Source: Gelidibacter japonicus
Lineage (GTDB): Bacteria > Bacteroidota > Bacteroidia > Flavobacteriales > Flavobacteriaceae
Direction of reading: 5' to 3'
DNA: 52,798 nucleotides
NCBI RefSeq assembly: GCF_010725055.1
Contig: NZ_BJKB01000022.1
Coordinates: forward strand, 1-52,798
Numbering within the stretch: the stretch's first letter is position 1; each line of letters starts with the position of its first letter. The position numbers and the translations under genes are program-made. This document shows, piece after piece, positions 21,239-46,955 of this stretch. The notes beneath the pieces are model-generated. The model searched no databases, was not told the origin of the DNA, and saw nothing but the letters and a program-made list of their open reading frames with translations.

Positions 21239-24200
21239 CTAATTCCCAATCACAAGATCATTTCCTGAAATCCAGGTTTTATCTTCATCACCATAAAACA
21301 AGTACACGTTGCTTGCTGGGGCTTTATAGGTTCCGGCAATATCTGCCTTTAAGTCCAAGCGCAAAGTTTTGGTTTCATTTTCTCTAAATTCACTCCAATA
21401 AAATACGAGGTAATTGTCGAAAATCTCATAATAGGCCGCTTGATTTTCGTCTAAAATCTTTTTAAGCTGCCAAGGTTGGGGTGTGGTACCGGACGGGATT
21501 CCAATCATGGCAATGGTCATTCCTGTAGGTTCATTTTTAGTATTGCTCACTTTTATGGTCATGCTCACGTTATCACCAACCTTATGCATTTTTGAGGCCA
21601 ATTCAGTTTTCAAATCCATCGGGCAGGCTTCTGATGAATTTGGCAACGTACTGTCCCATTTTAAGTTTAGGGCATAAGGATAGCTGTTTTCGGGAGTGTT
21701 GAAAATCACTTTTGCAGTCTGCTTACCTTCCTTGATGTGTTTTTCAAGTCCGTTAAGAGTGATTCTTCCTTGGGCATTGATTTCAAGTTTCGTTTTTATG
21801 GAACTTCCATTGATGATCAATTCTACAACCTCATTGGCACTAATGATTTTTTGATTCTGTTGTACGGTGTAATTGATTAAAACCTTTAATGCCATGGCCG
21901 TAGCTTGGGTGCTTCCAAACGTGCCGCCTTTTCGTTTACTGACCAAATATTCAATGCCTTTGGCGATGAGCGTATCATCTGGTTGATTTTCCCTCATTAA
22001 GGCCAAAAGTGTTAATGCCGTGGTTTCAATAGTTTTTGAATCGCCATAAGAGCGTGTAATGGTGTTTTGTACAGGAAGTCCGTTAAACCCGTATTCTGAA
22101 ATATTCGTTTTTATCTTTTTGATCAGGACCTTCAGGTTTTCTTGATTTCCAAGATTGTGGCTGGCCATAGCTAAAAGTGCCATTTTATAACTGTCATTGC
22201 TATGAAGTGCATCTTTATAAGTAGAATTATACTCAAGTTCAAGAGATGCATCAATTTTAGCTTCGCTCAAGGCATAGACAATATAGGCATTGGCAACATC
22301 CGATGGTGAGCTTGCAAAACTGTCATAACCTTTGTCGCTTTTTTTGAAGCCACCTTTTCCATCTTTTCTGCCTAATAACCATTTTACGGTTCTATCAATC
22401 ATCTTTTGATCTACGCCATTATAAAGTTGTTTCATTTCGGTAAACTCCAAGATGCCATAGGCCGTCAGTGTTTCGTGAGGTGGCGTATGGCCGAACCATT
22501 CAAAACCACCTTCAGAAGTTTCATAACTTATCAATCGCTTATAGCCTTCTTTAATATAGTCCATGGCTATAGCTTCAATGTCAGGATTGCTTTTTCCTGA
22601 TGCTTTCAAATATTGAAGCACCATAATATTGGGATAGGTAGCTGATGAGGTTTGTTCAAAGCAGCCATAAGGTTTGCTGATCATGCCTTCAATACCGTTC
22701 ATGACATCACCCACAACATCTGTGTAAATGTTGAATTCGGCTTCTAAACTACCCTCCACAACATTATTAATATCAAATTCAAAAGCTTGCGATTGTGATC
22801 CTGAAAGACTCATTTCGGTTGGAAAATACGGACTGACGACCGCCACTTCCCGATTTACAGTGTCTGAATATTCTTTTGATTGGAGTTCAAAACTTAGCCG
22901 TATTTTTTCTCCCTTTTTGATAGGAATCACGCTAATGTTTCTGATTATTGAACTTTTCGCATCCACCAGAATCTTCTTTTCTATGGATCCAACAAGTTTT
23001 AAATGTTCTGGTAGATTTATCTTGAAATCGGCAGAAATGGCCTGATCACTCTCATTTGTGATGGTAATAGGCAAAATGACCGTATCATTCAAAGTCATAT
23101 AATTGGGCGCTTTAAAATCGATAGCCAGAATTTTTTTGGTAGCATAGATTTCTTCTGCTCGACCAATTAATCCATTAAACCCAATGCCCTCTGCTACAAT
23201 TTTAAAAGAGGTAATGGCGTCAGAATTGTAATACTCTAATTGCGCTTCGCCGTTGGCATCGGTCTGCACCACAGGATTCCAATAGATGGTCTGTCTAAAA
23301 TCTGTGCGTTCTTCCACCACGTCTTTGCTATCGTATTTTGGCACATAAAATTGTTGAGAGCTGTAGGTGTTGGGCGTATTATAATTATAGTACTGTTGCA
23401 CAGCGTAGTTGTTGTAATTCGCATTATTTAGTCTTTTCTTGCCATAATTATTATAAAAATGAGCGTTTTTTGTTCCCACAAGGATGACACCGTTTGCTGC
23501 TCGACTCCCATATAGAGACGTTGCTGCGGCATCTTTTAAGACCGTGACTGAGTTGACTTGATTGGCATCAAGGTTTGCGAAGGTGTTTTGATCGTAAGGC
23601 ACACCGTCAACAATAATCAATGGTTCATTGTTTCCACTAATGGAGCTCATGCCTCTAATACTTGTTTTTGATGCATTTCCTGGTTGACCTGCATTCTGAA
23701 TAACTTGGATACCTGCAACATTGCCTTGGAGTGCATTGATCACAGATCCGTCGCGCATAAGTGCTTCAGCTCGCACTACGGTAACAGCACCTGATAGTTC
23801 CCGTTTATTTTTGTACCCATAACCAACCACCACCACTTCATCCAATGCCGCAGAATCCTCAGTTAGGGAAATTGTGGCAATGGCGTTTTGTGTGATGGTT
23901 TTTTTTAGCGGATTTTCATTTTTATCAAAACGCTTTGCTATCGTTTTATTTTCTTGATGGATGGCGTTTATGCCCTGGGCCAATTGTGCATTTTTGAAAT
24001 CGGTGTTTTTGATAGTAAGCGTTTCGCCATCATCGGCATAGGCAATAAGTACCAAGCTTCTGTTTTTATTGAATTTGAATGAGAATGTGCCATTTTCCTT
24101 GGTTTCAAATACCAATACCTTGTCACCATGTTCATCGAATAAGAATAAGTTGGCTTTTTTAGGATTTCCTTTTCTATCAAGGACGATACCGTTTTGTATG

Positions 24201-25810
24201 GCACTTTGTTCAGGTAAAAAAGCGGCGTTTTCTGCAGTGACCGTTGGTGTGCGAATATAATTTCTCCAGCCATGGGTGAGCATCACATAATCCAAAGCTT
24301 GCTCAGATTTCGGCTCCTTTGGGTTGAGATAAAAATGGGGCTTGTGTAGTTTTCCTTTTAATTCTGAAGATACCAATAGTGACGATAAAATATGATCCTG
24401 CTTATCATCGGCAAAGGACAACAGTTTATTATCGGCAACGGATACTGATAAATTGGAGGGAATAGGGGTGTTGTTCGCATCTGTGGTTTTTATTTTTATG
24501 CACATCTTCTCTCTTGTATCATAGATGTCTTTTTCTAAAGCAATGGTTACCTTGAGTTGTTTGTGGGCATTCATAAATACCAATCGTTCAGCAAGGATGT
24601 CTTGATTCGCATTTTTAATGCTGAAAGTGGCAATCCCCATAGGGAAATGTGCCGTATTTAAAACTATGTTTTTCTGATTTGAACCTATGGTTTGTGACAT
24701 TAATATCTTCGATGAGTTTCTGACTTCAAGAAATAAAATCTCATTTAAGGTTGAAAAAAGATCAATTTTAGTGGTTAAACTATCTGTTTCAATAGAGAAC
24801 TTGACGCCTTTATTATGAACGTCTGGAAGTTGGATGTTTCGATCAGACTTGAAAGGTTCCATAATTCTCGCATAATAAACCTGATCTGGTTTAACAAAAA
24901 ACTTAAAACTTCCCATGCCATCGTGAAAACTTTTGAAATCAGCCACTACGTTCAAGTTATTGTCCAATATCTGTCCGCTGACATCCACGGGTTTTCCAAA
25001 TTCATTGAGTGCTTTTAAGGCAATGGTATTGGTGGTCCCAGAAATCATTTGGCCACTTTCAGGGAAAAACTGAAGATCGATAGTATCTAAAACCACCGGA
25101 ACCGCTCGTGAAATCGATTCTGTACTGCCTTGATAAGGAATTAAAACATTCAGTACCACATCGGCAGTTTCCAGATTTTCAGGAAGTTTAAATCTTGGGT
25201 GCGCTTTCCCATCTGCATCAGTCATAAACTTTTCCGTAAGGAACGATTGTCCTTTGAGCGTGACTTCGAATGTCATTTCTTTATGGACCAACGGATTGTT
25301 TTTAAGGTCTTTCACTACAAAATCGGCAATCACCTCTGAAGATTTTCCGTAGCCTTCTTTCTGAAATTTAAGATTCAACAATAGGTTGGGCTGCACGACT
25401 TTTTGAACAGTAATCTGTTTGGTGAAAATCGCCTCTTCACCATAATTATGCGTCCAATTTGTATATACTTTTAAAGTATAAATCCCGCCAGCCCAATCGT
25501 TATCAATATGGAAATCACCGTAGGCATACCCTTGATCGACGCTCAATAATCGTGAGGTGACAACCGCCCCTTTTGGTGAAATCAATTCTGCATGAACAAG
25601 ATCGCTCAGATTGGAAATGGTGTGGTCTGAACTTACTATATAGGATTTGAACCAAATGGTTTCCCCTGGGAAATAAAATGGCCTGTCCGTTTGTGTGTAA
25701 ATTTTCTCCAAAAGCGATTTGTCTGACTGATAACTGTTAAAGGAAATCAGCGCAAAAAATAAAAGACCTACTAAAATCAGTGTTCTGGTAATTGGGCGAT
25801 GTTTTATCAT
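21239..25810 (-). CDS. Alpha-2-macroglobulin family protein with an internal TonB plug domain
   Basis: A 1523-residue exported protein. A signal peptide covers about residues 1-28. The first macroglobulin domains start at YTQTDRPFYFPGETIWFK. A carboxypeptidase-regulatory-like fold is at about 540-605. A SusC-type TonB-box-like segment DEVVVVGYG (Glu658) and a complete plug follow, to about 782; plug signatures are INALQGNVAGIQV, SIRGMSSISG, PLIIVDGVPYD and SLYGSRAANGVILV. The A2M domain resumes at TDFRQTIYWNPVVQT. The thioester motif GCFEQ is present (Cys1050, Gln1053) within a helical thioester domain, and a receptor-binding-like domain ends the protein. Five bases separate it from the upstream barrel gene, which lacks a plug. 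Location (periplasm or outer membrane) is inferred. Confidence 0.9.
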   Translation of the reverse strand: MIKHRPITRTLILVGLLFFALISFNSYQSDKSLLEKIYTQTDRPFYFPGETIWFKSYIVSSDHTISNLSDLVHAELISPKGAVVTSRLLSVDQGYAYGDFHIDNDWAGGIYTLKVYTNWTHNYGEEAIFTKQITVQKVVQPNLLLNLKFQKEGYGKSSEVIADFVVKDLKNNPLVHKEMTFEVTLKGQSFLTEKFMTDADGKAHPRFKLPENLETADVVLNVLIPYQGSTESISRAVPVVLDTIDLQFFPESGQMISGTTNTIALKALNEFGKPVDVSGQILDNNLNVVADFKSFHDGMGSFKFFVKPDQVYYARIMEPFKSDRNIQLPDVHNKGVKFSIETDSLTTKIDLFSTLNEILFLEVRNSSKILMSQTIGSNQKNIVLNTAHFPMGIATFSIKNANQDILAERLVFMNAHKQLKVTIALEKDIYDTREKMCIKIKTTDANNTPIPSNLSVSVADNKLLSFADDKQDHILSSLLVSSELKGKLHKPHFYLNPKEPKSEQALDYVMLTHGWRNYIRTPTVTAENAAFLPEQSAIQNGIVLDRKGNPKKANLFLFDEHGDKVLVFETKENGTFSFKFNKNRSLVLIAYADDGETLTIKNTDFKNAQLAQGINAIHQENKTIAKRFDKNENPLKKTITQNAIATISLTEDSAALDEVVVVGYGYKNKRELSGAVTVVRAEALMRDGSVINALQGNVAGIQVIQNAGQPGNASKTSIRGMSSISGNNEPLIIVDGVPYDQNTFANLDANQVNSVTVLKDAAATSLYGSRAANGVILVGTKNAHFYNNYGKKRLNNANYNNYAVQQYYNYNTPNTYSSQQFYVPKYDSKDVVEERTDFRQTIYWNPVVQTDANGEAQLEYYNSDAITSFKIVAEGIGFNGLIGRAEEIYATKKILAIDFKAPNYMTLNDTVILPITITNESDQAISADFKINLPEHLKLVGSIEKKILVDAKSSIIRNISVIPIKKGEKIRLSFELQSKEYSDTVNREVAVVSPYFPTEMSLSGSQSQAFEFDINNVVEGSLEAEFNIYTDVVGDVMNGIEGMISKPYGCFEQTSSATYPNIMVLQYLKASGKSNPDIEAIAMDYIKEGYKRLISYETSEGGFEWFGHTPPHETLTAYGILEFTEMKQLYNGVDQKMIDRTVKWLLGRKDGKGGFKKSDKGYDSFASSPSDVANAYIVYALSEAKIDASLELEYNSTYKDALHSNDSYKMALLAMASHNLGNQENLKVLIKKIKTNISEYGFNGLPVQNTITRSYGDSKTIETTALTLLALMRENQPDDTLIAKGIEYLVSKRKGGTFGSTQATAMALKVLINYTVQQNQKIISANEVVELIINGSSIKTKLEINAQGRITLNGLEKHIKEGKQTAKVIFNTPENSYPYALNLKWDSTLPNSSEACPMDLKTELASKMHKVGDNVSMTIKVSNTKNEPTGMTIAMIGIPSGTTPQPWQLKKILDENQAAYYEIFDNYLVFYWSEFRENETKTLRLDLKADIAGTYKAPASNVYLFYGDEDKTWISGNDLVIGN

Positions 25811-25815
25811 GATGT

Positions 25816-28662
25816 TTAGATTTTAATGTTGAGTTTCAGACCGATTTCAGTCGCTATTGGCGCATTAAAAAAGTTTAAGCCCTGTCCGGAATGGGTGTCA
25901 TAAAGACTGCTATAAGGTGAAGCTCCTCGATATTTTGTATAGGTAAATAGATTATTGGCATATAGTCCGAGGTCAAAAGCCCTGAAGAATGAATGGTTGT
26001 TTTGGTTTGTGAAACTGTAGGTGATGTCCACCGACTTTAAATTGATATAGCTTCCGTCTTCAATAGCATCTTCAGCAACCCCTTCAAAACCGTAACGCAC
26101 AAAGCGGTTGGCTTCTATACCCTGAGAAGGATTATAAAAATCTACCGGAATTGTATTTGGGTGACCCTGAGCGTTGACGCCAGCAAAAACATAATCTTTG
26201 ATGCCTCTTTCTTGCGCAGATTGTTGGGAGGTTCCGTAGTAATTCAAGACGTTTTGAGTGCCATTCCATACATCGCCGCCTTTTTGAAAATCGATAACAA
26301 AATTTAATTGAAAGCGTTTCCAAGTCAATCCGTTGGAGAAACTTAAATTGAAATCAGGTGTTGGATTCCCAATCTGCTGGAGTTCTGAAGCGACCAGTGG
26401 AAACCCGTGCGCTCCAATAATTTGATTTCCATGAGCATCTCTGGCATACGCTGAACCGTAAATAACACCAGCGGGTTGGCCCACCACCAAATTTTTTGAA
26501 ACTGTTGAAAATCCTGCAATTGCCAAGCGTTCTTGAGGGATTTTTAAATCCAACACTTTACTTCTATAGGTTGAAAATAGAATTTGAGAGGTAAACCCAA
26601 AATTATTGTACCGATAGCGCATAAACTCCAAATTCATTTCTATGCCGTTATTTTGTATCTCTGCAGTATTTCTAAGTTGAAATCCGTTCCCTTCATGTAC
26701 AGGGAAAACACTGCCTTTATGTTTGCTATAGAAATAGGTCATGCCGAAATCGACAGTGATGTCCCATACCTTGAGGCCTATTGTTGCGGCAACATCATGG
26801 TAGATTTTTTTTTCAAGTTGGAGTTCGTCGTTGAGGAATAAATCTTGGTTTGCCGTATATCTCAAAGTTTCTGAAGGGCTCATCACCAGACTATTATGGC
26901 TTTGATTGTTATAGAATAGGGGCATTTCTTTAACATCAAAGGAGTTACGTGAGCTCAAGTAAAGTTTGTCTAAACTATATATTTCGAATAGTTCAATGAG
27001 ATTCAGCTTTAAATATCCTGTTGGTAATACATAATGGTTTTTTTGAAGGGATGATATGAAACTGCTATTGCTAAGCGTTAATTCCAAACCAAGATGATGC
27101 CATTCCAAGCTTGCCTCGTTCAAAACTCTTAGTGAATGCATTGAAGCATCATGTACATTGGAGTTTTTGTTGTTTGGATTTGAAAATGAAAAATCATTGA
27201 ATCCAGTGGCTTCATTGAAACGGTATTTCAAATGGTCATAACCATAATCGATTGCTGAATTGATGGTAAGGGAATAGTTGTTTTCTTCAAATTTGTAGTT
27301 GAGATTGACATTGGCAATGAGCGTATTTTTTTCAATATTTTTTTGACTTAAATACCCGTTCTCAAATCCAACGGTCTGCGCCACAAGTCCGAAGTTTTGC
27401 TCATTATTTGTGTGTTGATAGTTGATTTTGCTGGTAAGTTGAAGGTCATCAGAAATTTTAAATTGATTTTGAATGCTTCCAAGAAATAGCTGATAATAAT
27501 CTGCATTTTTATTGTAATTGAAAAGCCATTCCGGATTGTTGAACCTTAAAGGACTATAACTGCGCTGTGTTTGATTGTTTAAGGTGGCGCCTTGTGAATT
27601 CTCAAAACTTGTTGGTGTGGTCCAAGAATTCAAGAACAGATTGTTTATAAAACCATTGGTATTGGGCTGGGCGTTGAATTGATCTGTATATCTAAGACTT
27701 GTGTCCCATTTTATTCTTTTTCGGTAATAATTGGTGTTCTTATAGGTTAGGGCAAGATTGTTTTTAGTGCTGGCTTCTCTTCCAAAAGCATCTTCGTCCA
27801 TGTCGTAATTATAGTCGAAGCCTAAAATCCAATCTTCAGTCGAGATTTTAAAAAATAGATTGTGATGTGATTTAAGATTGGTTTTTAAAATAGAATTATC
27901 ATAAGCTTGTGCTGGAATGCCGTTGCCATTTCCAAGTGTTACCAAACGGCCATTCACATCATAAGGGTAAGAGCTGCCGTCAAATTCCAAAGTTCTCAAA
28001 TACGGTCCGTAAGAAAATGGATTGCCGGTTTCTGGGCCTAAAAATGACAACTTATTATTTGAAACTGTACCCTGGCTGAAAGACGTTTGTAGTTCTGGAA
28101 GGTTTTTCTTCTTAATGAATTGAAACGATGTAAAGGAGCTGTATCCAATTTCATAATAGATGTCAGGATCAAAATAGGTAAGTTCTACTCTATCAGGTTT
28201 AATTTCCATCGCTTTAATCCGATTGTACTCAAAATGATTATTTTTATTAAAGGTTCTTTCGGAATGTTCAAAGCTTGGGACTTCAAAAGACGTTTTATTC
28301 AACTCTTTTAATGCGTTGGCATAAGCTTCAGTTTGAATCTTGGCCACAGGTTCCTGAGCTTTGGTTTTAATATTCGGATCCATTCCAAATAGACGTGTAG
28401 TGACTTTCACTTCAGTACTTTTCATGCCAACACTACTGAAGACCAGAATGTCGCCAATTTTGCAGTCAATTTTGTAATTCCCGTCAAAATCGGTTTGAAC
28501 GCCTTTGTTGGTGCCTTTTATAACAATAGATACGCCGGGCAATGGCAAACCATCAACATCAGATTTTAAGATTCCCGAAACCGTCCCTTGTTGTGCAAAA
28601 CCATGTGTAACGATCATTAAAAAGAAGAAGAGGAAAAGATAAGGATGGTATTGATTTCTCAT
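25816..28662 (-). CDS. SusC-like TonB-dependent receptor barrel without a plug domain
   Basis: A 948-residue outer-membrane protein. The signal peptide ends HGFAQ near residue 24. A carboxypeptidase-regulatory-like domain follows (GTVSGILKSDVDGLPLPGVS, GTNKGVQTDFDGNYKI) to about residue 95. Then come about 70 residues I do not recognise, and from about residue 165 a SusC-type barrel with LPELQTSFSQG, NPTPDFNLSFSNGLTWKRFQ and YINLKSVDITYSF. The DEVVVVGYG segment and plug signatures (LQGxxAGVxV, IRG, VDGV, LYGSRAANG) that normally lie between these parts are absent. They occur in the next gene. No SusD gene is adjacent. Transcribed first in the pair. Confidence 0.88.
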   Translation of the reverse strand: MRNQYHPYLFLFFFLMIVTHGFAQQGTVSGILKSDVDGLPLPGVSIVIKGTNKGVQTDFDGNYKIDCKIGDILVFSSVGMKSTEVKVTTRLFGMDPNIKTKAQEPVAKIQTEAYANALKELNKTSFEVPSFEHSERTFNKNNHFEYNRIKAMEIKPDRVELTYFDPDIYYEIGYSSFTSFQFIKKKNLPELQTSFSQGTVSNNKLSFLGPETGNPFSYGPYLRTLEFDGSSYPYDVNGRLVTLGNGNGIPAQAYDNSILKTNLKSHHNLFFKISTEDWILGFDYNYDMDEDAFGREASTKNNLALTYKNTNYYRKRIKWDTSLRYTDQFNAQPNTNGFINNLFLNSWTTPTSFENSQGATLNNQTQRSYSPLRFNNPEWLFNYNKNADYYQLFLGSIQNQFKISDDLQLTSKINYQHTNNEQNFGLVAQTVGFENGYLSQKNIEKNTLIANVNLNYKFEENNYSLTINSAIDYGYDHLKYRFNEATGFNDFSFSNPNNKNSNVHDASMHSLRVLNEASLEWHHLGLELTLSNSSFISSLQKNHYVLPTGYLKLNLIELFEIYSLDKLYLSSRNSFDVKEMPLFYNNQSHNSLVMSPSETLRYTANQDLFLNDELQLEKKIYHDVAATIGLKVWDITVDFGMTYFYSKHKGSVFPVHEGNGFQLRNTAEIQNNGIEMNLEFMRYRYNNFGFTSQILFSTYRSKVLDLKIPQERLAIAGFSTVSKNLVVGQPAGVIYGSAYARDAHGNQIIGAHGFPLVASELQQIGNPTPDFNLSFSNGLTWKRFQLNFVIDFQKGGDVWNGTQNVLNYYGTSQQSAQERGIKDYVFAGVNAQGHPNTIPVDFYNPSQGIEANRFVRYGFEGVAEDAIEDGSYINLKSVDITYSFTNQNNHSFFRAFDLGLYANNLFTYTKYRGASPYSSLYDTHSGQGLNFFNAPIATEIGLKLNIKI

Positions 28663-38279: not shown

Positions 38280-41039
38280 CTAATATCCCACGTCCTTTTC
38301 GATAAAATCGATTTCCGGATTGCAAATTTCTATGATCAGTTTTTTAAGTTCTCCATAAAAACTATCCAAGGTTTCTTTTGTTATTGTTTGATCTTTATCT
38401 CTACTTCTTGATGATGGTTTTTTGCCAAACTTTAAAAAATAATCACCTTGTAGATTCTTAAAGGAAATGATACCGGCTTCTAATGATTGAGATATACCTT
38501 CTGTTGCATTCAGCATATAAGCATAGGCCAAAATTTGAAAGCTTTTGCTATACTTATTGTAATCTGAGGTGATGTTTTCCCAATCAACGATTTCAACCTG
38601 TCCTTGGTTGACTTTACCTGTTTTATAATCTATTATCCTAAGTGTCCCATCAAACTCGTCAATTCTGTCCACAGTGCCTTTTAAACGAACGTTAAAATCC
38701 AATTCAGGGATGACCACTGGTATGTCGAGTTCCTTTTCTAAGTGTATGATCTTAATCTGATGCCCCGCTTTTAAAGTTTCTATTTCTTTATTAATAAAAT
38801 TTGATATATAACGTTTGGCGACTTCAAGAATAATAAGGTTTTTTCCTTTGGTCATATCACCTTCCTTATAAAACGACTTAAAGTGATGGGCCACATTAGC
38901 ATTTATTTGAGCTTTCATTTGGAGTAAATCGGCTTCAGTGAGTAGTTGTCCTTTATGCGGTGTGTAAAAATCCTCTAAGGTCTGATGGATGACGCTCCCC
39001 AAGGTATTGGCTGCTACGGTTTCTTCAACATCTTCAAAACTCTGTATTTTTAAGACTTTTTCATAGTAAAAATCTAAAGGATTTCTGATGTAATTTGTCA
39101 AGGATGATGGCGAAAGTCCGTAGCCAGCAATCTGCTGCAATCTTGTGATTACACCGGGCGTTTTTTCAATGATTTTAGGCTGCTTTTGTACGACTTCCAC
39201 GTTCGGAACGACAATGCTATGTTGTATATGGTGGATGTTTTCAATTTGGAGTTGGGTTATAAACCGACTTTTCTCCCCACCATTCAACACATCAGGCTCT
39301 GTATTGTAAATGATATACACATTTTTTGCACGTTGCAACAGTCTGTAAAAATGATAGGTATAAACTGCATCTTTTTCCTTATAGGTTGGTAGTCCATTTT
39401 CAAGTTTCACATCGAAAGGAATAAATGAGTTGCTACTTTTTCCTGCCGGAAGAATTCCTTCATTAACGGACGATATGATAACCGTTTCAAAGTCCAAAAC
39501 TCTAGACTCGAGCATTCCCATAATTTGAAGTCCCTGTAGAGGTTCACCTTTAAAATCTAAAGTTTCACTACTCAATAACTCCTTGTAGAGAAAATAAAGT
39601 GTAGTACTGTTGCTGATGAGATTGTATTTGGTGTTATAGTGCTCTAACTCGTTGAATATTTGATTAAATCTATATAGATACTCGAGAGCCAAAAGATGTT
39701 TTGACTTCTCTAAATCAAGTTCTGACTTTAGCGTGAGGATGAGTTTGGAACAATTCCTGAATGCTTTTTCAGAGCTATTTTCCCACGATTGGAATAGAAG
39801 CCTTACAACCTCGTATTTTGCACCTGCTAATGCTATTAACTTATCAACTGAAATTGTAACAATATTATTGCTCTGAATATAATTTATGATCTGATTGCTA
39901 AAATTGACTCCCTTATGTGTCAATACAGACTGTATAAAGGAGTGTGATAAAATAGCTACCACATCCTTATAATAAAGTGTGTGGTTATGATTTTTCTGAA
40001 TCTTGAATACTAAATCGAATAAGGATGCCATTGGTACCGATTTCAGAGGAAGACCCATGGTGATGTTTATGGCTTCTACCTTTTGTGGAATAGAATTGAG
40101 CAATGGCATTAAAAGGGTTTCATCACCTAAAACGACTGCAGTTTTCTTTAAATCGCCGGGAGCTAAGCTGTCCAGTAATTCTCCAATATACTTTACCTGA
40201 CCAATATTTTTTGGAACGGCAATGGTCTGGATGTTTTTTTCGGAGCGATAATTCTCGCCTACCCAGTTCATTTGATTGTTTTTATAAAAGGGCCAGTTCT
40301 TGAGATGCTGCCTGATAAACAAACCTGCATCATGGATTGGATTTTTAATGAAAGTTGCGTCAATATCCCAATAGATATCTGCCAGATCCTGTTGCAATAA
40401 TTCTTGTATAATACGTTCTTCAGCGTTGTTTAAGGCATTGAAGCCAATAAAAACATGTTGTTTATTGGGGTTTGAACCTATGTAGGGTTCGATGCCATTT
40501 ACTGCCTCCCTATAGACTAAGCCTTGATATCCTTTTTTATTTAAGATCAACTTTTCTCGGAATGCATTATAATAGATTTTAAGTCGGTTCCAAAATGCTA
40601 AATAATTTTTGATATAAGGGGTCTGCTGTTCTGATAAAGACCAATGATTGAGTTCCTTAATGGATGTTAAATAATCAAAAATATGATCAGGATCTATAAG
40701 GTACCGATCTATTTCATTAAAATCCTGAAGTAAAAGTTGTCCCCATTTTGAAAATTGATCAAAAGTGTCTCGCTGAGGTTCTGGGGTAAGTTGGGTATAT
40801 ACTAGGTAAAACTCAAAAAGAAGTTCGGTGTTGCTAGCATAACTAAGATCAGAAAGACTTTCCACAAATTCCTCAATGGATAAAATTTCGGGAGCAAATG
40901 TAGTTTTGGAGATGGAATGGGAGAGGATATCCTTTAAGAAAGTACCAGCTCTTTTGCTTGGCAATATAAAGGTGAGCTGTGAAATATCCAATTCTTTTTT
41001 TTGGATGTCGTCAATAACTTCTTTTAAAAAACTTCTCAT
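38280..41039 (-). CDS. AddB-like PD-(D/E)XK nuclease subunit
   Basis: A 919-residue protein similar to the AddB (RexB-like) subunit of double-strand-break resection enzymes. The N-terminus has a degenerate helicase motif FILPSKRAGTFLKDIL, as in AddB of Bacteroidota, without a real Walker A. The C-terminal nuclease domain shows GSVIHQTLEDFY, the catalytic Asp in VDRIDEFDGTL and DYKTG. The partner helicase is at 43809-46955, with kbl and ompA in between. It is the last gene of the minus-strand run, after the ompA terminator. It should act with the AddA-like protein on DNA ends. Confidence 0.88.
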   Translation of the reverse strand: MRSFLKEVIDDIQKKELDISQLTFILPSKRAGTFLKDILSHSISKTTFAPEILSIEEFVESLSDLSYASNTELLFEFYLVYTQLTPEPQRDTFDQFSKWGQLLLQDFNEIDRYLIDPDHIFDYLTSIKELNHWSLSEQQTPYIKNYLAFWNRLKIYYNAFREKLILNKKGYQGLVYREAVNGIEPYIGSNPNKQHVFIGFNALNNAEERIIQELLQQDLADIYWDIDATFIKNPIHDAGLFIRQHLKNWPFYKNNQMNWVGENYRSEKNIQTIAVPKNIGQVKYIGELLDSLAPGDLKKTAVVLGDETLLMPLLNSIPQKVEAINITMGLPLKSVPMASLFDLVFKIQKNHNHTLYYKDVVAILSHSFIQSVLTHKGVNFSNQIINYIQSNNIVTISVDKLIALAGAKYEVVRLLFQSWENSSEKAFRNCSKLILTLKSELDLEKSKHLLALEYLYRFNQIFNELEHYNTKYNLISNSTTLYFLYKELLSSETLDFKGEPLQGLQIMGMLESRVLDFETVIISSVNEGILPAGKSSNSFIPFDVKLENGLPTYKEKDAVYTYHFYRLLQRAKNVYIIYNTEPDVLNGGEKSRFITQLQIENIHHIQHSIVVPNVEVVQKQPKIIEKTPGVITRLQQIAGYGLSPSSLTNYIRNPLDFYYEKVLKIQSFEDVEETVAANTLGSVIHQTLEDFYTPHKGQLLTEADLLQMKAQINANVAHHFKSFYKEGDMTKGKNLIILEVAKRYISNFINKEIETLKAGHQIKIIHLEKELDIPVVIPELDFNVRLKGTVDRIDEFDGTLRIIDYKTGKVNQGQVEIVDWENITSDYNKYSKSFQILAYAYMLNATEGISQSLEAGIISFKNLQGDYFLKFGKKPSSRSRDKDQTITKETLDSFYGELKKLIIEICNPEIDFIEKDVGY

Positions 41040-41051
41040 TGTATAAAAATA

Positions 41052-41080
41052 AAAAACGCCCCGAATATCGGAGCGTTTTT
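41052..41080 (-). terminator. Intrinsic terminator after ompA
   Basis: AAAAACGC (41052-41059, with one more A before it) and CCCGAATATCGG pair with the GCGTTTTT arm at 41073-41080. On the minus strand it lies 26 nt after the ompA stop and 13 nt before the AddB-like start. Confidence 0.75.
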
Positions 41081-41105
41081 CTGAAATATTTATAGTTTAT
41101 AAAAC

Positions 41106-42467
41106 TTAGTTTGTAAGTTTTACTTCTACACGTCTGTTGTTGGTTCTACCAGCAGCAGTTTTGTTAGTGTCAATTGGATTCTCCTGACCAAAGCCTTTAG
41201 AAGTTAAACGATCTTTGTCAATTCCGTTAGCAATTAACCAGTCTTTCACCGCATTAGCTCTTCTTTCTGACAATAATTGGTTAGATCTTGCTGATCCAAC
41301 GCTATCAGTATAGCCTTCAATAACAAAGGTAGCTTCTGGGAATTCTTTGAAGATGGCGTTCATAGCCTCTAATGTTTGAATAGACTCTTTCTTGAAAGTA
41401 GCTTTACCAGTATCGAATAAGATAGTTCTAGCATAGTCATTCAATTGTTTCATCTTCTCAGGAGTTGGCTTAACTTCTGGACAACCGAAGTTTGCAACAG
41501 TACCAGGAACATCTGGACATTTATCATCTTTGTCCAATACACCGTCACCATCTCTATCTGGCCAAGGACATCCTTTGTTAGCAGCAGGGCCAGCTTCGTT
41601 TGGACACTCGTCTAAATGATCTGGAACACCATCACCATCAGCATCAGGACAACCTTTTAACGATTTTAATCCAGCAACAGTAGGACAGTCATCTAAATGA
41701 TCTGGAACACCGTCACCATCAGTATCAGGACAGCCGTTAAATTCAGCTAAACCAGGAACGTCTGGACAGTCGTCTTTTGCGTCTTCAATACCGTCGCCAT
41801 CTGTGTCAGGACAACCGTTGAACTCTGGTAAACCAGGAACGTCTGGACAAGCATCATCTTTGTCATATATGCCATCACCATCAGTGTCTTTTCCACCAAA
41901 TTTAAGTGCTAAACCAACTGTGTGTTGGAAATGTGTAGCTAAGTAATCTTCGAATGCATGTTTGTAGGCAGATTGAACTGTTACACCAATGTTTTCAGAA
42001 AACCATAGGTTGAAACCAAGGGTTCCGTTTAATGTACCTGCTCCAATATCATCAACCCAGGTATAACCACCACCTACTCCTAAGTAAGGCTCAAAAACTT
42101 TTGAGTTAATTAGGTTGGCAAAGCTATATTTTACCGTACCGTCTAATGCATAGTAAGATAAATCGTCAGCTGAGGTATTACCTATTTTACTGATTTCGTT
42201 GATAGTACCAGCTGCAGTTAATGAAAAACCGTCTGATAAGTATCTAGAAACAGAAATTGAGGATAATGAAGGTAAGACGTTGTAGTGATCTCCAAAATTG
42301 AAGTATTGATCAAAGATCTCACCCTGTCCGTCTTCACCCGTTGGGTAAAAGTCAACTGCATTCACGCCAACCCCAATAGCCCAAGGGTTGTTTGCGTCTT
42401 GTGCGTTGGCGTTGCTAAAGCTCAATAGAAGCAACATAGCGAAAAATAATCTGCTAAGATTTTTCAT
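41106..42467 (-). CDS. OmpA family protein with thrombospondin type 3 repeats
   Basis: A 453-residue outer-membrane protein that links the membrane to peptidoglycan. The signal peptide ends SNANAQ near residue 23. An N-terminal beta-barrel of about 170 residues follows. Five calcium-binding TSP3-type repeats of the form [19 protein letters not shown] run from about residue 200 to 325. The OmpA C-terminal domain has [20 protein letters not shown] and [20 protein letters not shown] with the peptidoglycan-binding Asp and Arg. Highly expressed family. A strong -7 element lies at 42537 and a terminator at 41052. Confidence 0.95.
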
Positions 42468-42536
42468 ATTCTAATAATTTAATTTTTAAGTGTTAATTAT
42501 GAACAAAAGTAAGTTGTTAAACGTTATTAACAAAGA

Positions 42537-42544
42537 CAAATATA
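42537..42544 (-). promoter_or_regulatory. Candidate -7 promoter element for ompA
   Basis: Read on the minus strand this is TATATTTG, an exact TAnnTTTG match. It lies 70 nt before the ompA start, giving a leader of about 65 nt. Confidence 0.5.
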
Positions 42545-42591
42545 TAAAAATATTGACTATTTGCCTTAAAACAGTACTGTTTGGACTAATT

Positions 42592-43785
42592 TTAGATAAT
42601 TTTCAAGGTTTTCCCAACTTTTATAAAAGCGGCTATTGCTTTGTCCAAATGTTCTTTGGTGTGGGCCGCTGATAACTGTACCCTAATCCTTGCTTGGTCC
42701 TTGGGTACGACTGGAAAGAAGAAGCCTATTACATAGATTCCTTCCTCAAGAAGCATTGATGCCATTGTTTGGGATAATTTCGCGTCGTAAAGCATCACTG
42801 GGACTATCGCTGAATCGCCATCAATAATATCAAATCCTTCCTTCTGCAACGCTTCTTTGAAATATTTCGTGTTTTTGGTCAATTGATCCTTTAATGTAGT
42901 GTCATTGGCAAGCATGTCAAATACCTTGATGGAAGCACCAACTATAGCTGGAGCCAGCGAATTTGAAAACAAATAGGGTCTTGAGCGTTGACGAAGTATT
43001 TCAATGATTTCTTTTTTTCCTGTAGTATATCCACCCATGGCACCACCCATTGCCTTCCCTAAGGTTCCGGTAATGATGTCTATTCGGTCCATAACCCCTT
43101 TTTCTTCTAAGGTACCACGTCCTGTATCTCCAATAAATCCAGTGGCATGGCATTCGTCTATCATGACCAGAGCGTCATATTGATCTGCCAAATCACAAAT
43201 CTTATCCAAAGGTGCCACCAAGCCGTCCATAGAGAATACACCATCGGTCACAATAATCTTAAAGCGTGCGCCATTCTTATTGGCCTCAACCAGCTGTTTT
43301 TCTAAATCCTCCATGTCGTTATTTTGATAACGATAGCGTGCCGCCTTGCATAAACGTACCCCGTCAATAATTGACGCATGATTCAATGAGTCAGAAATAA
43401 TCGCGTCCTCTGCACCAAATAGAGGTTCAAAAACCCCACCATTGGCATCAAATGCTGCCGCATATAGGATGGTGTCCTCGGTGCCATAAAATTCAGCGAT
43501 TTTTTGCTCCAAAGTTTTATGGATGTCTTGAGTGCCACAAATAAATCGTACTGAAGACATTCCAAATCCATGACTGTCCAAAGTGTCTTTGGCAGCTTGT
43601 ACTACTTCAGGATGGGAAGAAAGGCCTAAATAATTATTGGCACAAAAGTTCAGAACAGTTTGGCCTGTATTGAGAGTTATTTCTGCGCCTTGAGGAGAAG
43701 TGATGATGCGCTCTTCTTTGTAAAGCCCTGCTTCTTTAATGTCTTCAAGTTCTTTTTGTAAGTGTTGTTGTATATTTCCGTACAT
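42592..43785 (-). CDS. kbl: Glycine C-acetyltransferase (2-amino-3-ketobutyrate CoA ligase)
   Basis: A 397-residue PLP enzyme of the alpha-oxoamine synthase family. It cleaves 2-amino-3-ketobutyrate with CoA to glycine and acetyl-CoA in threonine degradation. [56 protein letters not shown] and the PLP Lys in [17 protein letters not shown] identify it. Length matches Kbl. No threonine dehydrogenase gene is next to it. The gene sits between the two recombination subunits, 23 nt after the AddA-like gene, so it is probably cotranscribed with it. Confidence 0.94.
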
Positions 43786-43808
43786 AATAATTTGAATTTA
43801 GTACAAAG

Positions 43809-46800
43809 TTAAAATTCTTTTACTTGAATATCCTCATTAATGTATACAAGTATTCTTTTTACTACATTAAAACCCATTTCCTCAAGAATAACTTGATATT
43901 CCATGATTTGATTTTGATGTGATGGACGTACAGCACCTGTTTTGTAATCTATAATAACTGTCTCTAATTTATTGTTGACAATAATGCGATCCGGTCGTGA
44001 AATAAGCCCCCCTGATATGAGAATATCCCTTTCATTATAAACAGTAAGATCAGGTAGAAAAAAGTCTTTCAATTGTTCGTGACGGACAATTTGCATTATG
44101 ATTGGTTGTAGTTCTGAACTTTGATGGGCATTGAGATCCCCTTTGCTTTCAAGTTCTTGAAAAACAAAATTGATGTCATTTTCTGTTTTGATCTTGGACA
44201 TGATTAAATGTACCAAGTTTCCTTTTTCAATGGCGGCTTCTTGCTCTGTGTCCCATAGGTAACCAGTATTGGTGACAATCCGTAAATCGTGATTTTCCTT
44301 AGCAACCGAAATGAAGCGTTTCTGAAGAGTGGATTCTTCTACTTTTTTTGTGGGTAAAACCCGAGTCGGATCTCCAAACGTATAGGTTTTTTCGGCATCA
44401 TTCCACAATCCAGCCGATTTAAGATAATTGATAAATAAACCCGAATACACGTTAGGATTTTCGTTTTGCCCTTTATCAACATCGTATTCAGATACAATAT
44501 ACAGCTGTTCCACGGCTCTGGTGAGGACAACATACAGAAGATTCATGCTATCCAATTCTAATTGTGCCCTATAATCGGCATACAAGCTTTGTCCTAATTC
44601 TCCAAGACCTTCCAAATCTTTATTGACATTGATGAATACATTTGAAAAACCATTGAATATCTCCGGATTGACAGGAAACCACATTTTAGGGGACATATCA
44701 AAATAAAGATCCTGATTGGCATAAGGGAAAATTACAACCGGGAACTCCAAACCTTTAGATTTGTGGATAGTCATAATTTGGACCGCGTTATTACCCTGAG
44801 GAGAAGTAATGGATAGTTTTTCTTTTTTAATCTCCCAATGTGAAATAAAATCAGAAAAACTGGCATTGTGCTTCTGCGAATAGTCCAAAACTTCATCCAA
44901 GAAAAACTGAATATAGGCGTTGGAGGTTTTGTTTAAATTAAATTGTCTGACCACACTTTCTACAGCTTCGTAAAATGGAAGTTGTAAAAATTGATTAAAA
45001 TCGAAAAACAGATTGTATTTACTGAGTGCTTTGAACATTTCAAAAGCCTCCAAATGTACAAGGTTGTCAAAAAACAGATGTTTATCATCCAATTGAATGT
45101 GCTGGTCAGCCAAATAACTTAAGACCTCAATTTTCAACATCTCGTTATAAGGTTGAGAGGCTAATGCGATGGTGTTGGTGAGAAATTGGACTTCGGGTGA
45201 ATTTTTTAGCAGCAAGGATTCGGAAGAAATGATGGGAATTCCTTTAACACTCAAATATTCAGCAAGAGCGGTCCCTTCTTTAGATTTTCGAGATATGATG
45301 CACATATCCCGCAATTCAAACTTGTTTTCCTGAGCCTTTTGGATCGCTTCCAACACTTTTTTTCCATAAATAGCGTCTTTGTCTTCAGATTCAAACTCTA
45401 AAAACGAAAGCTCAATATAACCATCACCTGTCAAATGAAAATTTTGCCGACTGGCTTCATAAATTTCTCGATGTGATCTATTGGAAAACGCAAGAGAGGA
45501 AGTGTGCTTGAAGAAATCATTGTTGAAATTTACGATCGTCTCTAAACTTCTATAATTGGTTGGTAAGTCTTCAATATGCTGTTCAATGTGAAATGGTTGT
45601 GTTCGTTTGGTATATAAGTCAATAAACTGTTCGGCCTTGCCACCGCGCCATCTGTAGATAGCCTGTTTTGCATCGCCCACCAGCATTGCCGAGCCTGTTT
45701 CACCTTTTAAATTCTGACTTGAGATGGCATTCTCGATTAATGGAATAAGGTTTTCCCATTGTTTTACAGAAGTGTCCTGGAACTCATCAATAAAGTAATG
45801 CCTGTATTTTTCACCGATCCGTTCGTAGATAAATGGGGCTGGTTGTGATTTTATTTCATTGCTGATAAGTGAATTGAATTCTGAAATGAGGATTAAATCT
45901 TCATCGACTTTAATCTCCTGAAGACTTTTATATATGGCATTCAATACAGATAAAGGCGTGAGGTTATTCATGATGTTCTTTAAGAACTTCAGTTGGTACA
46001 CTTGCTCTTTGGTTTCTTGAAAGGCAGCAACTAAAATGGGCTGTATAGTATCAATAGTTGCAGCGGTGCCAAGCGAAACTCTTGTTGGATAGAGCTTTGT
46101 GTCTTCAATTTCCAACTGCCATTTGTTGTCAAACTTAAGATCATAATTCTTATCCCTTAATTTAAGAAAGTGGTTAGGCAATGAGTTTCTTGAAAAATCG
46201 CTGTGCTCCAAGCCATTTTCATCTAAAAGGTTTAAAACGTGTTGTGATTTTTCAACGACATCTAATTCCTGAGTCTTGATAATTTTTAAGAGTTGCGTTT
46301 TTAGACCTTTAAAATCTTCAATAGACTTGTCCTTTAAAGCTTCAAAATACGGAATGTCATTTTCATTGATGAGCACTTGCGCAATTTGATTAAAATCGAA
46401 GGCCACATCCCAGCTTTTGTCATCATCGGCTTTTTCAATGGCAAAGTCAACAAGTATTTTTGTGAGTTGTTTTTCAGTTCCAGCCTTATCGATCAATTGG
46501 TCCACAGCTTTTGAAAGAATTGTCTTGGTGTCCAATTCTACCTCAAAATTGAGAGGTAGTTTCAAGTCGTGGGCGAAGGTTCTTATAAGCCTATGGTTGA
46601 ACTTGTCAATGGTAGATATGTCAAATGCCGCATAGTTATGGGCAATGGTGTTTAGGATAATTTTCGATTTTTCGTGAAGTGTTTTGGGTTCCATATTGAG
46701 TTCCTTAGATAGAATCTCGAACATTGGGGTTGGTCTTTCTAAAATATCAGGATCTGAAAATGCGATAAGCATTTCTACGACCCGTTCTTTCATTTCAGCA

Positions 46801-46955
46801 ACGGCTTTATTTGTAAATGTTAAAGCCAATATATTTTTAAAGGCATTTTGCTGATTGGAAGTAAACAGTATTTTTAAATATACCTTTACCAAGGTAAAAG
46901 TTTTTCCACTTCCGGCCGAAGCATTATAGATGAGGAAAGGTTGTCTGACTTCCAT
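43809..46955 (-). CDS. AddA-like UvrD-family helicase-nuclease
   Basis: A 1048-residue superfamily 1 helicase with a C-terminal nuclease, the motor subunit of an AddAB/RecBCD-type enzyme. Walker A is YNASAGSGKTFTLVKVYL near residue 15. Motif Ia is LALTFTNKAVAEMKERV, Walker B is FIDEFQDTSVKQW, motif III is LVGDAKQAIYRWRGG, and motif VI is VVLTRAVEQLYIVS. The PD-(D/E)XK core near the C-terminus has SRPDRIIVNN and IIDYKTGAV. The gene is followed by kbl on the same strand, and the AddB-like subunit is two genes further on. Confidence 0.92.
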   Translation of the reverse strand: MEVRQPFLIYNASAGSGKTFTLVKVYLKILFTSNQQNAFKNILALTFTNKAVAEMKERVVEMLIAFSDPDILERPTPMFEILSKELNMEPKTLHEKSKIILNTIAHNYAAFDISTIDKFNHRLIRTFAHDLKLPLNFEVELDTKTILSKAVDQLIDKAGTEKQLTKILVDFAIEKADDDKSWDVAFDFNQIAQVLINENDIPYFEALKDKSIEDFKGLKTQLLKIIKTQELDVVEKSQHVLNLLDENGLEHSDFSRNSLPNHFLKLRDKNYDLKFDNKWQLEIEDTKLYPTRVSLGTAATIDTIQPILVAAFQETKEQVYQLKFLKNIMNNLTPLSVLNAIYKSLQEIKVDEDLILISEFNSLISNEIKSQPAPFIYERIGEKYRHYFIDEFQDTSVKQWENLIPLIENAISSQNLKGETGSAMLVGDAKQAIYRWRGGKAEQFIDLYTKRTQPFHIEQHIEDLPTNYRSLETIVNFNNDFFKHTSSLAFSNRSHREIYEASRQNFHLTGDGYIELSFLEFESEDKDAIYGKKVLEAIQKAQENKFELRDMCIISRKSKEGTALAEYLSVKGIPIISSESLLLKNSPEVQFLTNTIALASQPYNEMLKIEVLSYLADQHIQLDDKHLFFDNLVHLEAFEMFKALSKYNLFFDFNQFLQLPFYEAVESVVRQFNLNKTSNAYIQFFLDEVLDYSQKHNASFSDFISHWEIKKEKLSITSPQGNNAVQIMTIHKSKGLEFPVVIFPYANQDLYFDMSPKMWFPVNPEIFNGFSNVFINVNKDLEGLGELGQSLYADYRAQLELDSMNLLYVVLTRAVEQLYIVSEYDVDKGQNENPNVYSGLFINYLKSAGLWNDAEKTYTFGDPTRVLPTKKVEESTLQKRFISVAKENHDLRIVTNTGYLWDTEQEAAIEKGNLVHLIMSKIKTENDINFVFQELESKGDLNAHQSSELQPIIMQIVRHEQLKDFFLPDLTVYNERDILISGGLISRPDRIIVNNKLETVIIDYKTGAVRPSHQNQIMEYQVILEEMGFNVVKRILVYINEDIQVKEF

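Follow-up and report, generated by a model that had tools for sequence, protein, structure and literature searches.

How an outer-membrane receptor could be gated when its own chain lacks a plug, and why the protein encoded next to it should carry one, are the questions raised by two adjacent genes of Gelidibacter japonicus. They lie in a stretch of 52,798 nucleotides (nt), positions 1–52,798 of contig NZ_BJKB01000022.1, which was analyzed here and is called the window. The first gene (25816..28662) encodes a SusC/RagA-type barrel of 948 amino acids (aa), identified from its open reading frame (ORF), Pfam, TIGR04056, AlphaFold2, and Foldseek. The second (21239..25810) encodes a thioester alpha-2-macroglobulin of 1523 aa, identified from its ORF, Pfam, and phmmer. 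The two are separated by 5 nt, and they and all features described within them are on the minus strand. TIGR04056, the SusC model, is divided over both proteins: the macroglobulin matches positions 59–292 (E 2.1e-54), and the barrel protein matches positions 2–63, 218–517 (weak, E 4.4e-5), and 635–980. Judged by these profile matches, the two adjacent proteins are complementary parts of one SusC model. A preliminary description of the locus had proposed a split system in which the macroglobulin lends its plug to the barrel, and had suggested that this may serve to export or anchor the macroglobulin or to import trapped material. The split held up in the sequence tests (no hidden plug, pairing in both directions, and 27 gene contexts), and insertion of the plug into the barrel is the part that we infer.

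The only Pfam domain of the barrel protein is CarbopepD_reg_2, which forms an N-terminal extension domain at residues 29–90 (28393..28578), and no Pfam Plug match is present even at E ≤ 1. The ~72 residues that stand where a SusC would have its TonB box and plug (93–164; 28171..28386) contain no plug according to Pfam, AlphaFold2, and our plug model, and residues 165–948 (25819..28170) form a β-barrel with ~22 long strands, as counted manually from the DSSP assignment. The AlphaFold2 model, for which 58 homologues from the 62 collected barrels were aligned, has a mean predicted local distance difference test (pLDDT) score of 88.7 and a predicted template modeling score of 0.78. Residues 93–145 are mostly of low confidence, with 94–110 and 121–130 at pLDDT <50, and the linker contains a short helix (112–120) and a hairpin (149–163) before the long strands begin at residue 169. 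In the Foldseek search, the top 22 solved matches of this model were all SusC/RagA-type chains, the best being 5fq6 (BT2264; E 6.7e-45). The absence of a plug that had been read from the sequence was thus borne out by Pfam, AlphaFold2, and Foldseek. Residues 95–165, where a plug might have been concealed, hold none in the AlphaFold2 model, and an unfiltered search of 62 barrels with the plug model returned nothing under E 0.96. A hidden or frameshifted plug in the barrel was rejected on these grounds. Likewise, no TonB box was seen by eye at residues 91–165 in an alignment of 10 barrels.

The barrel protein scores 162.8 bits against TIGR04056, under the cut-off of 368.25 bits. Within its own genome, where 56 of 81 SusC candidates were scored, all 29 SusC matches above this cut-off coincide with a Pfam Plug match, implying that the lack of a plug in this barrel, which is the exception, does not reflect a general failure of detection. 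Among the 62 barrels, the N-terminal extension profile matches 45; the unmatched 17 are nearly all Chitinophaga-type, and 15 of them are only 829–854 aa long, which leaves even less space for a plug. The barrel of Dokdonia pacifica (L087:5179-7587) is only 802 aa long with short barrel-profile matches, yet it stands beside a plug-bearing macroglobulin.

The macroglobulin has the parts that the barrel lacks. Its Pfam matches are MG2 (residues 36–122; 25445..25705), Plug (669–775; E 2.7e-18), A2M (PF00207; 841–927; 23030..23290), TED_complement (E 6.2e-32) in a thioester domain at 1028–1314 (21869..22729), and A2M_recep, a receptor-binding-type C-terminal domain at 1429–1508 (21287..21526). The thioester motif GCFEQ lies at residues 1049–1053 (22652..22666), and GCxEQ is kept in all 86 macroglobulins that were collected. 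A CarboxypepD_reg-like domain at residues 541–602 (24005..24190), which has a weak Pfam match (E 0.095) and confident model strands, is followed by a tether at 613–656 (23843..23974) with pLDDT <50 and no secondary structure in the AlphaFold2 model. Next come the TonB box DEVVVVGYG at 657–665 (23816..23842), comparable to the Ton box DEVVVTG of Bt1763, and the SusC-type plug at 666–782 (23465..23815), recognized by Pfam, phmmer, and the SusC-plug model. The TonB box and plug are thus present at residues ~657–782, close to the range that the preliminary description had given (about 658–782). A second tether at 783–832 (23315..23464), mostly at pLDDT <50 over 783–797, leads to an alpha'NT-like RxxF motif (R835...F838; 23297..23308), which in the alignment faces R732 and F735 of human A2M. 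The AlphaFold2 model of residues 1–1002, based on 59 of 63 alignment rows, shows good MG domains and unstructured segments at ~613–668 and 783–797, and its structural matches are C3, CD109, A2ML1, and A2M, with ECAM lower.

The preliminary description did not note which slot the plug occupies; in this analysis, it was placed after the CarboxypepD_reg-like domain and before the start of PF00207 at residue 841. By phmmer, macroglobulin residue 835 aligns with C3 alpha-chain position 93 (E 6.8e-12), and residue 832 corresponds to TEP1 602 (E 7.6e-20). C3a is formed by the initial 77 residues of the C3 alpha chain. According to the part of PMC9352918 consulted, R732 and F735 of human A2M are conserved alpha'NT residues. 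The plug thus fills the bait-region/anaphylatoxin slot. No disordered bait region precedes alpha'NT/MG6alpha in the macroglobulin, and the slot consists of the TonB box and plug; the low-confidence tethers on either side of the plug could still serve as bait. With a permissive pattern, an RxxF-type motif directly preceding the YW motif was found in all 67 plug-bearing macroglobulins tested and in 13 of 16 plug-free ones. The slot of plug-free relatives is a charged, low-complexity stretch (31% charged in the 12 measured, versus 17% in 65 plug-bearing proteins), which in composition looks like a bait region.

The plugs of the macroglobulins retain much of the SusC character. A loose TonB-box pattern was found in 65 of 68 plug-bearing macroglobulins, and the three misses (L095, L111, and L136) read DEV or TEV by eye. 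When the 68 macroglobulin plugs were compared with 21 SusC plugs, the SusC consensus residue was retained at 51 of 62 conserved columns, and the column entropies of the two sets were correlated (r 0.71). Against the SusC-plug model, the macroglobulin plugs scored a median of 120 bits versus 45 bits for eight barrel-less MG-plug proteins. These properties bear on the reading that docking serves as an anchor only, whereby the barrel–plug pair would keep an otherwise ordinary protease inhibitor of the periplasm attached beneath the outer membrane, replacing an inner-membrane anchor like that of E. coli ECAM, TonB and transport would be unneeded, and the tethers or other loops would act as bait. 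No cysteine, and therefore no lipoprotein signal, is present in residues 1–45 of the window macroglobulin, and the tethers either side of the plug are of low confidence and probably flexible, both of which suit an anchor. A conserved TonB box and much SusC constraint on the plug would, however, be superfluous for a pure anchor, and we regard this reading as unlikely, if one to be kept in view.

The association of the two genes was examined starting from the macroglobulin. A family sample of 199 genomes contained 10, including that of G. japonicus, with this type of macroglobulin, and all 10 have a plugless barrel directly upstream with a gap of 2–5 nt. A contig profile scan provided 80 further loci, the best 80 of at least 572 confirmed relatives and hence a set biased to close relatives; together with the 10 family loci and less four duplicates, these gave the 86 macroglobulins, 68 of which carry a plug. 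A plugless barrel lies upstream on the same strand in all 62 plug-bearing loci that have upstream DNA, and the remaining six (L085, L088, L092, L095, L110, and L111) either begin no more than 67 nt from a contig end or are truncated by it. The gap is -1 to 6 nt in 49 pairs and between -269 and 50 nt in 12, and one pair (L134) is separated by 1199 nt containing only short, repetitive-looking ORFs. The negative gap at L087 results from the start of the upstream ORF, and the other large negative gaps are assumed to have the same origin. Eighteen macroglobulins were called plug-free, from which L100 (a pair whose plug-bearing macroglobulin is in two ORFs) and the truncated L117 and L131 were set aside; none of the 15 intact plug-free macroglobulins has a barrel anywhere in its locus, L138 and L143 having only 1.3–1.4 kb upstream.

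The 62 pairs occur in 27 gene contexts that share no neighbor family within 5 kb, the largest of which holds 18 pairs. In 23 of the 27, at least one locus has neighbor ORFs on both sides, and the others are bounded by contig ends or empty flanks. The neighbors of the pair are not conserved across loci, and no conserved third gene was found beside the pairs. Chance adjacency, or a local accident of the gene pair, was rejected on the strength of the 62/62 pairing and the 27 contexts. The idea that the locus is an artefact, either a hidden or frameshifted barrel plug or an accidental local pair, is contradicted by the same two results together with the barrel model and the unfiltered plug search; nothing was found in its favor, and we give it almost no credence.

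The pairing was also followed in the reverse direction. In the family sample, the barrel profile was searched at E ≤ 1e-140 and the best four candidates per genome were scored. The same 10 genomes were recovered along with an eleventh (G079), in which a barrel fragment precedes the N-terminal portion of a macroglobulin with a plug, interrupted by the contig end. A plugless barrel thus adjoins a plug-bearing macroglobulin in 11 of 11 genomes, and the sole other family barrel match, a 1060-aa ORF in G057, has its own plug. A phylum sample of 395 genomes, with a macroglobulin cut-off of E ≤ 1e-80 and the best two barrel candidates per genome scored, yielded the macroglobulin in five genomes. Four of these (G000, G127, G157, and G427), all with a plugged macroglobulin, also have the barrel, whereas G352, whose macroglobulin is plug-free, has no barrel in its 16-kb locus and none in its genome at E ≤ 1e-90. 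The 12 barrel matches that follow in the phylum sample are SusCs of 1049–1128 aa, every one with a plug; given that only the best two candidates were scored, a weaker plugless barrel elsewhere in the phylum genomes is possible. The adjacency of plug-bearing macroglobulins and plugless barrels that the preliminary description had anticipated was accordingly recovered from both sides, in 62/62 assessable loci and, in reverse, in 11/11 and 4/4 genomes.

Plugs were also encountered in other proteins. Eight MG-plug proteins of ~820–1340 aa combine MG-type domains with a plug in the corresponding slot and have an MG6alpha-like tail, but lack the thioester half; their loci, including L056:4837-13971, L057:6042-8546, L058:7734-15597, and L060:3005-9210, often hold them in tandem, and no barrel match was found near any of the eight in the 20-kb loci. 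At L172:379-2703, directly upstream of the G427 plugless barrel, a protein combines a von Willebrand A (VWA) domain, a type IX secretion system (T9SS) tail, a TonB box, and a plug, so that one barrel may have two candidate plugs. At L048:4623-5093 in G157, just upstream of the barrel, the second half of a plug occurs twice in an ORF of 156 aa. The half-plug and VWA-plug ORFs each occur at one locus only. A 2005-aa ORF at L142:12439-18456, just downstream of a plug-free macroglobulin, matches the plug model at residues 1196–1346 as well as the extension-domain model and has no barrel match. The plugs of the MG-plug proteins, the VWA protein with its T9SS tail, and the 2005-aa protein, none of which has a barrel of its own, lend some weight to a reading in which the plug never enters the barrel and instead binds TonB or another partner; the barrel would then be a pore, open or closed by other means, linked to the macroglobulin only by a common operon. 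Against it speak the pairing in both directions, in which the barrel is missing precisely the plug, and the far lower scores of barrel-less MG-plugs against SusC plugs, and we consider it improbable.

Sequence and models establish the domain anatomy, the absence of the plug from the barrel, the conserved pairing, the slot position, and the conservation of the TonB box and thioester motif. On balance, we lean toward the view that the products of the two genes form a single heteromeric TonB-dependent gate. The barrel would be a SusC-type pore whose plug is provided in trans by the macroglobulin on two flexible tethers, and docking of the plug in the barrel is a step that we hold with good confidence. 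Since the N and C ends of the plug of a TonB-dependent transporter are both on the periplasmic side, the body of the macroglobulin is probably periplasmic, where it would hang beneath the barrel with its TonB box reachable by TonB. The same arrangement bears on a further reading, in which TonB energy would carry the macroglobulin through the barrel for export or display and it would act outside the cell: periplasmic plug ends would leave the domains flanking an inserted plug in the periplasm, a folded protein of 1500 residues would need to pass through the barrel, and no T9SS tail was found by Pfam in the window macroglobulin. A precedent is provided by Oar, a TonB-dependent transporter that is required for secretion of the PopC protease in Myxococcus xanthus, as stated in the abstract of PMC6434023, and even so we judge export very improbable.

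To return to the heteromeric gate, we think that the slot position of the plug is the key to its mechanism. A TonB pull on the plug, or a cut in the plug or tethers by a protease entering the gate, would free the alpha'NT from its channel; its release would let the macroglobulin collapse, and the thioester would bond covalently to the incoming protein. The outcome would be a trap for proteases or proteins, placed immediately behind a door in the outer membrane. That release or cleavage of the plug is the trigger seems to us possible, at somewhat less than an even chance. The fuller version, a TonB-energized covalent trap in which the plug doubles as bait domain and a gating event or proteolytic attack fires the thioester at incoming matter, is offered as a tentative proposal that may well prove wrong. 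In the portions of the literature available to us, A2M collapse is described as the freeing of alpha'NT from its channel once the bait is cut, with a structured domain in the same slot in complement (PMC9352918, section 6). Moreover, SusC plugs are reported to be displaceable from the barrel, and the Bt1763 Ton box DEVVVTG is needed for function, TonB-box mutants failing to grow normally on levan (excerpts of PMC7782687), which makes entry of a plug from another chain mechanically plausible. TonB-dependent transporters are also described as gated by forced remodeling (PMC5413942, in part).

Several observations weigh against this reading. The modeled plug of the macroglobulin has the helix/strand pattern, but its block-mean pLDDT is only ~42–66, and the plug fold therefore rests on sequence. 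Left-out SusC plugs reach a median of 193 bits against the SusC-plug model, above the 120 bits of the macroglobulin plugs. The alignment of the alpha'NT stretch with human A2M is sub-threshold when taken alone (-3.7 bits). Covariation of plug and barrel rates beyond that of the rest of the macroglobulin is weak, with a partial r of 0.21 over 62 pairs and 0.16 in the 44 Flavobacteriia-type pairs, the latter value being reached in 25 of 500 permutations; in this smaller set, the plug and the N-terminal part of the macroglobulin gave a partial r of 0.17, so that the plug–barrel value is no stronger. Other Bacteroidota proteins have plug domains but no adjacent barrel, so a plug alone does not prove that a barrel partner exists. 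Analogy is the sole basis of the trigger model. The pair is patchy as well: a barrel match at E ≤ 1e-30 was found in 0 of 8 other genomes of the genus, implying that the pair is dispensable. A caution applies to INDEPENDENCE, in that the difference between plug and no plug is a single change on a tree of 82 macroglobulin C-terminal halves, on which plug and barrel change state together once only. The perfect correlation is therefore one event faithfully kept and not many independent events. The real evidence is the retention of the pair across Flavobacteriaceae, Chitinophagaceae, one Sphingobacteriaceae, and unplaced lineages despite many changes of neighborhood.

Some plug-free slots (those of L122, L123, and L142, all from Saprospiraceae, and that of L126) contain, by eye, TonB-box-like pieces (LNEVVV, LNAVVV) or plug-like pieces (FVDGV; IRG...VEGLDI), and the plug-free macroglobulin of L142 has a Pfam Plug match below the cut-off (E 0.018). 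As read from their residues, these remnants hint at decay of an ancestral plug, with plug and barrel lost together, on a tree whose root is undefined. In G117 (Pustulibacterium; the contig is shared with L097), a 109-aa ORF at L054:17032-17361, ~4.5 kb downstream of the full gene, matches only the macroglobulin C-terminal domain and is possibly the remnant of a second macroglobulin copy.

Ten window proteins were scanned with Pfam, and the eight genes nearest the pair are unrelated to it. They encode UDG, a pyridine-nucleotide oxidoreductase, TP_methylase, a fumarase/aspartase-type lyase, OsmC, RecJ, one protein with no family, and an MFS transporter. No SusD was found among these eight, the rest of the genome not having been searched for it, in line with the preliminary description. 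Farther away in the window (38280-46955), an OmpA-family protein gene is flanked by AddB-like and RecB/AddA-like genes.

TonB-dependent transporters are described as a single chain of barrel and plug, and macroglobulins as bait-triggered traps. Here, the barrel has no plug or TonB box in cis, the macroglobulin has no bait region, and each holds what the other lacks; we therefore rate the pair as new as an arrangement, its component protein families being known and complex formation being what we infer. No description of this arrangement was found among the open-license papers searched, where absence is weak evidence. If the reading is true, the plug of a TonB-dependent transporter would here act in trans, and the trigger of a macroglobulin would be a membrane gate. 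Such a two-component gate, in which the plug can be added or withheld, would allow a clean study of plug movement. It would also give a new role to bacterial macroglobulins, whose function is so far largely presumed. For the complement superfamily, in which the trigger slot holds a bait region or an anaphylatoxin domain, the plug would be a third filling.

Comparing the pair with known systems, the MG-ring plug proteins of Flavobacteriaceae (~820–1340 aa), for which we know of no name, share MG2, the plug, and an MG6alpha-like tail in the same order, MG2 being found by Pfam in five of six short ones (not that of L063) and the plug by our own model in eight. They differ in that they match the C-terminal half of the macroglobulin over only ~65–95 residues at their end, have no barrel match in the fetched loci, and carry weaker plugs, as seen in their median scores. 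The Oar–PopC system of Myxococcus likewise ties a TonB-dependent transporter to a protease-related protein, whereas Oar is needed to secrete the protease, and the opening of the abstract mentions no macroglobulin (PMC6434023). The SusC/RagA transporters (BT2264, Bt1763, and RagA) have the same barrel fold, N-terminal extension domain, Ton box type, and SusC-type plug; here, however, the plug is on a separate macroglobulin, and SusD is missing from the neighboring genes scanned. C3, CD109, A2ML1, A2M, and ECAM are matched by the macroglobulin in both sequence and structure. With ECAM/YfhM of Escherichia coli and the human A2M/C3 family, it shares the MG domains, the TED with its thioester motif, and the receptor-binding-type C-terminal domain. 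ECAM is described, in the source portion consulted, as functionally paired with Pbp1C, whereas the gene pairing here is with a barrel, and the TonB box and plug replace the disordered bait region or anaphylatoxin domain of these relatives.
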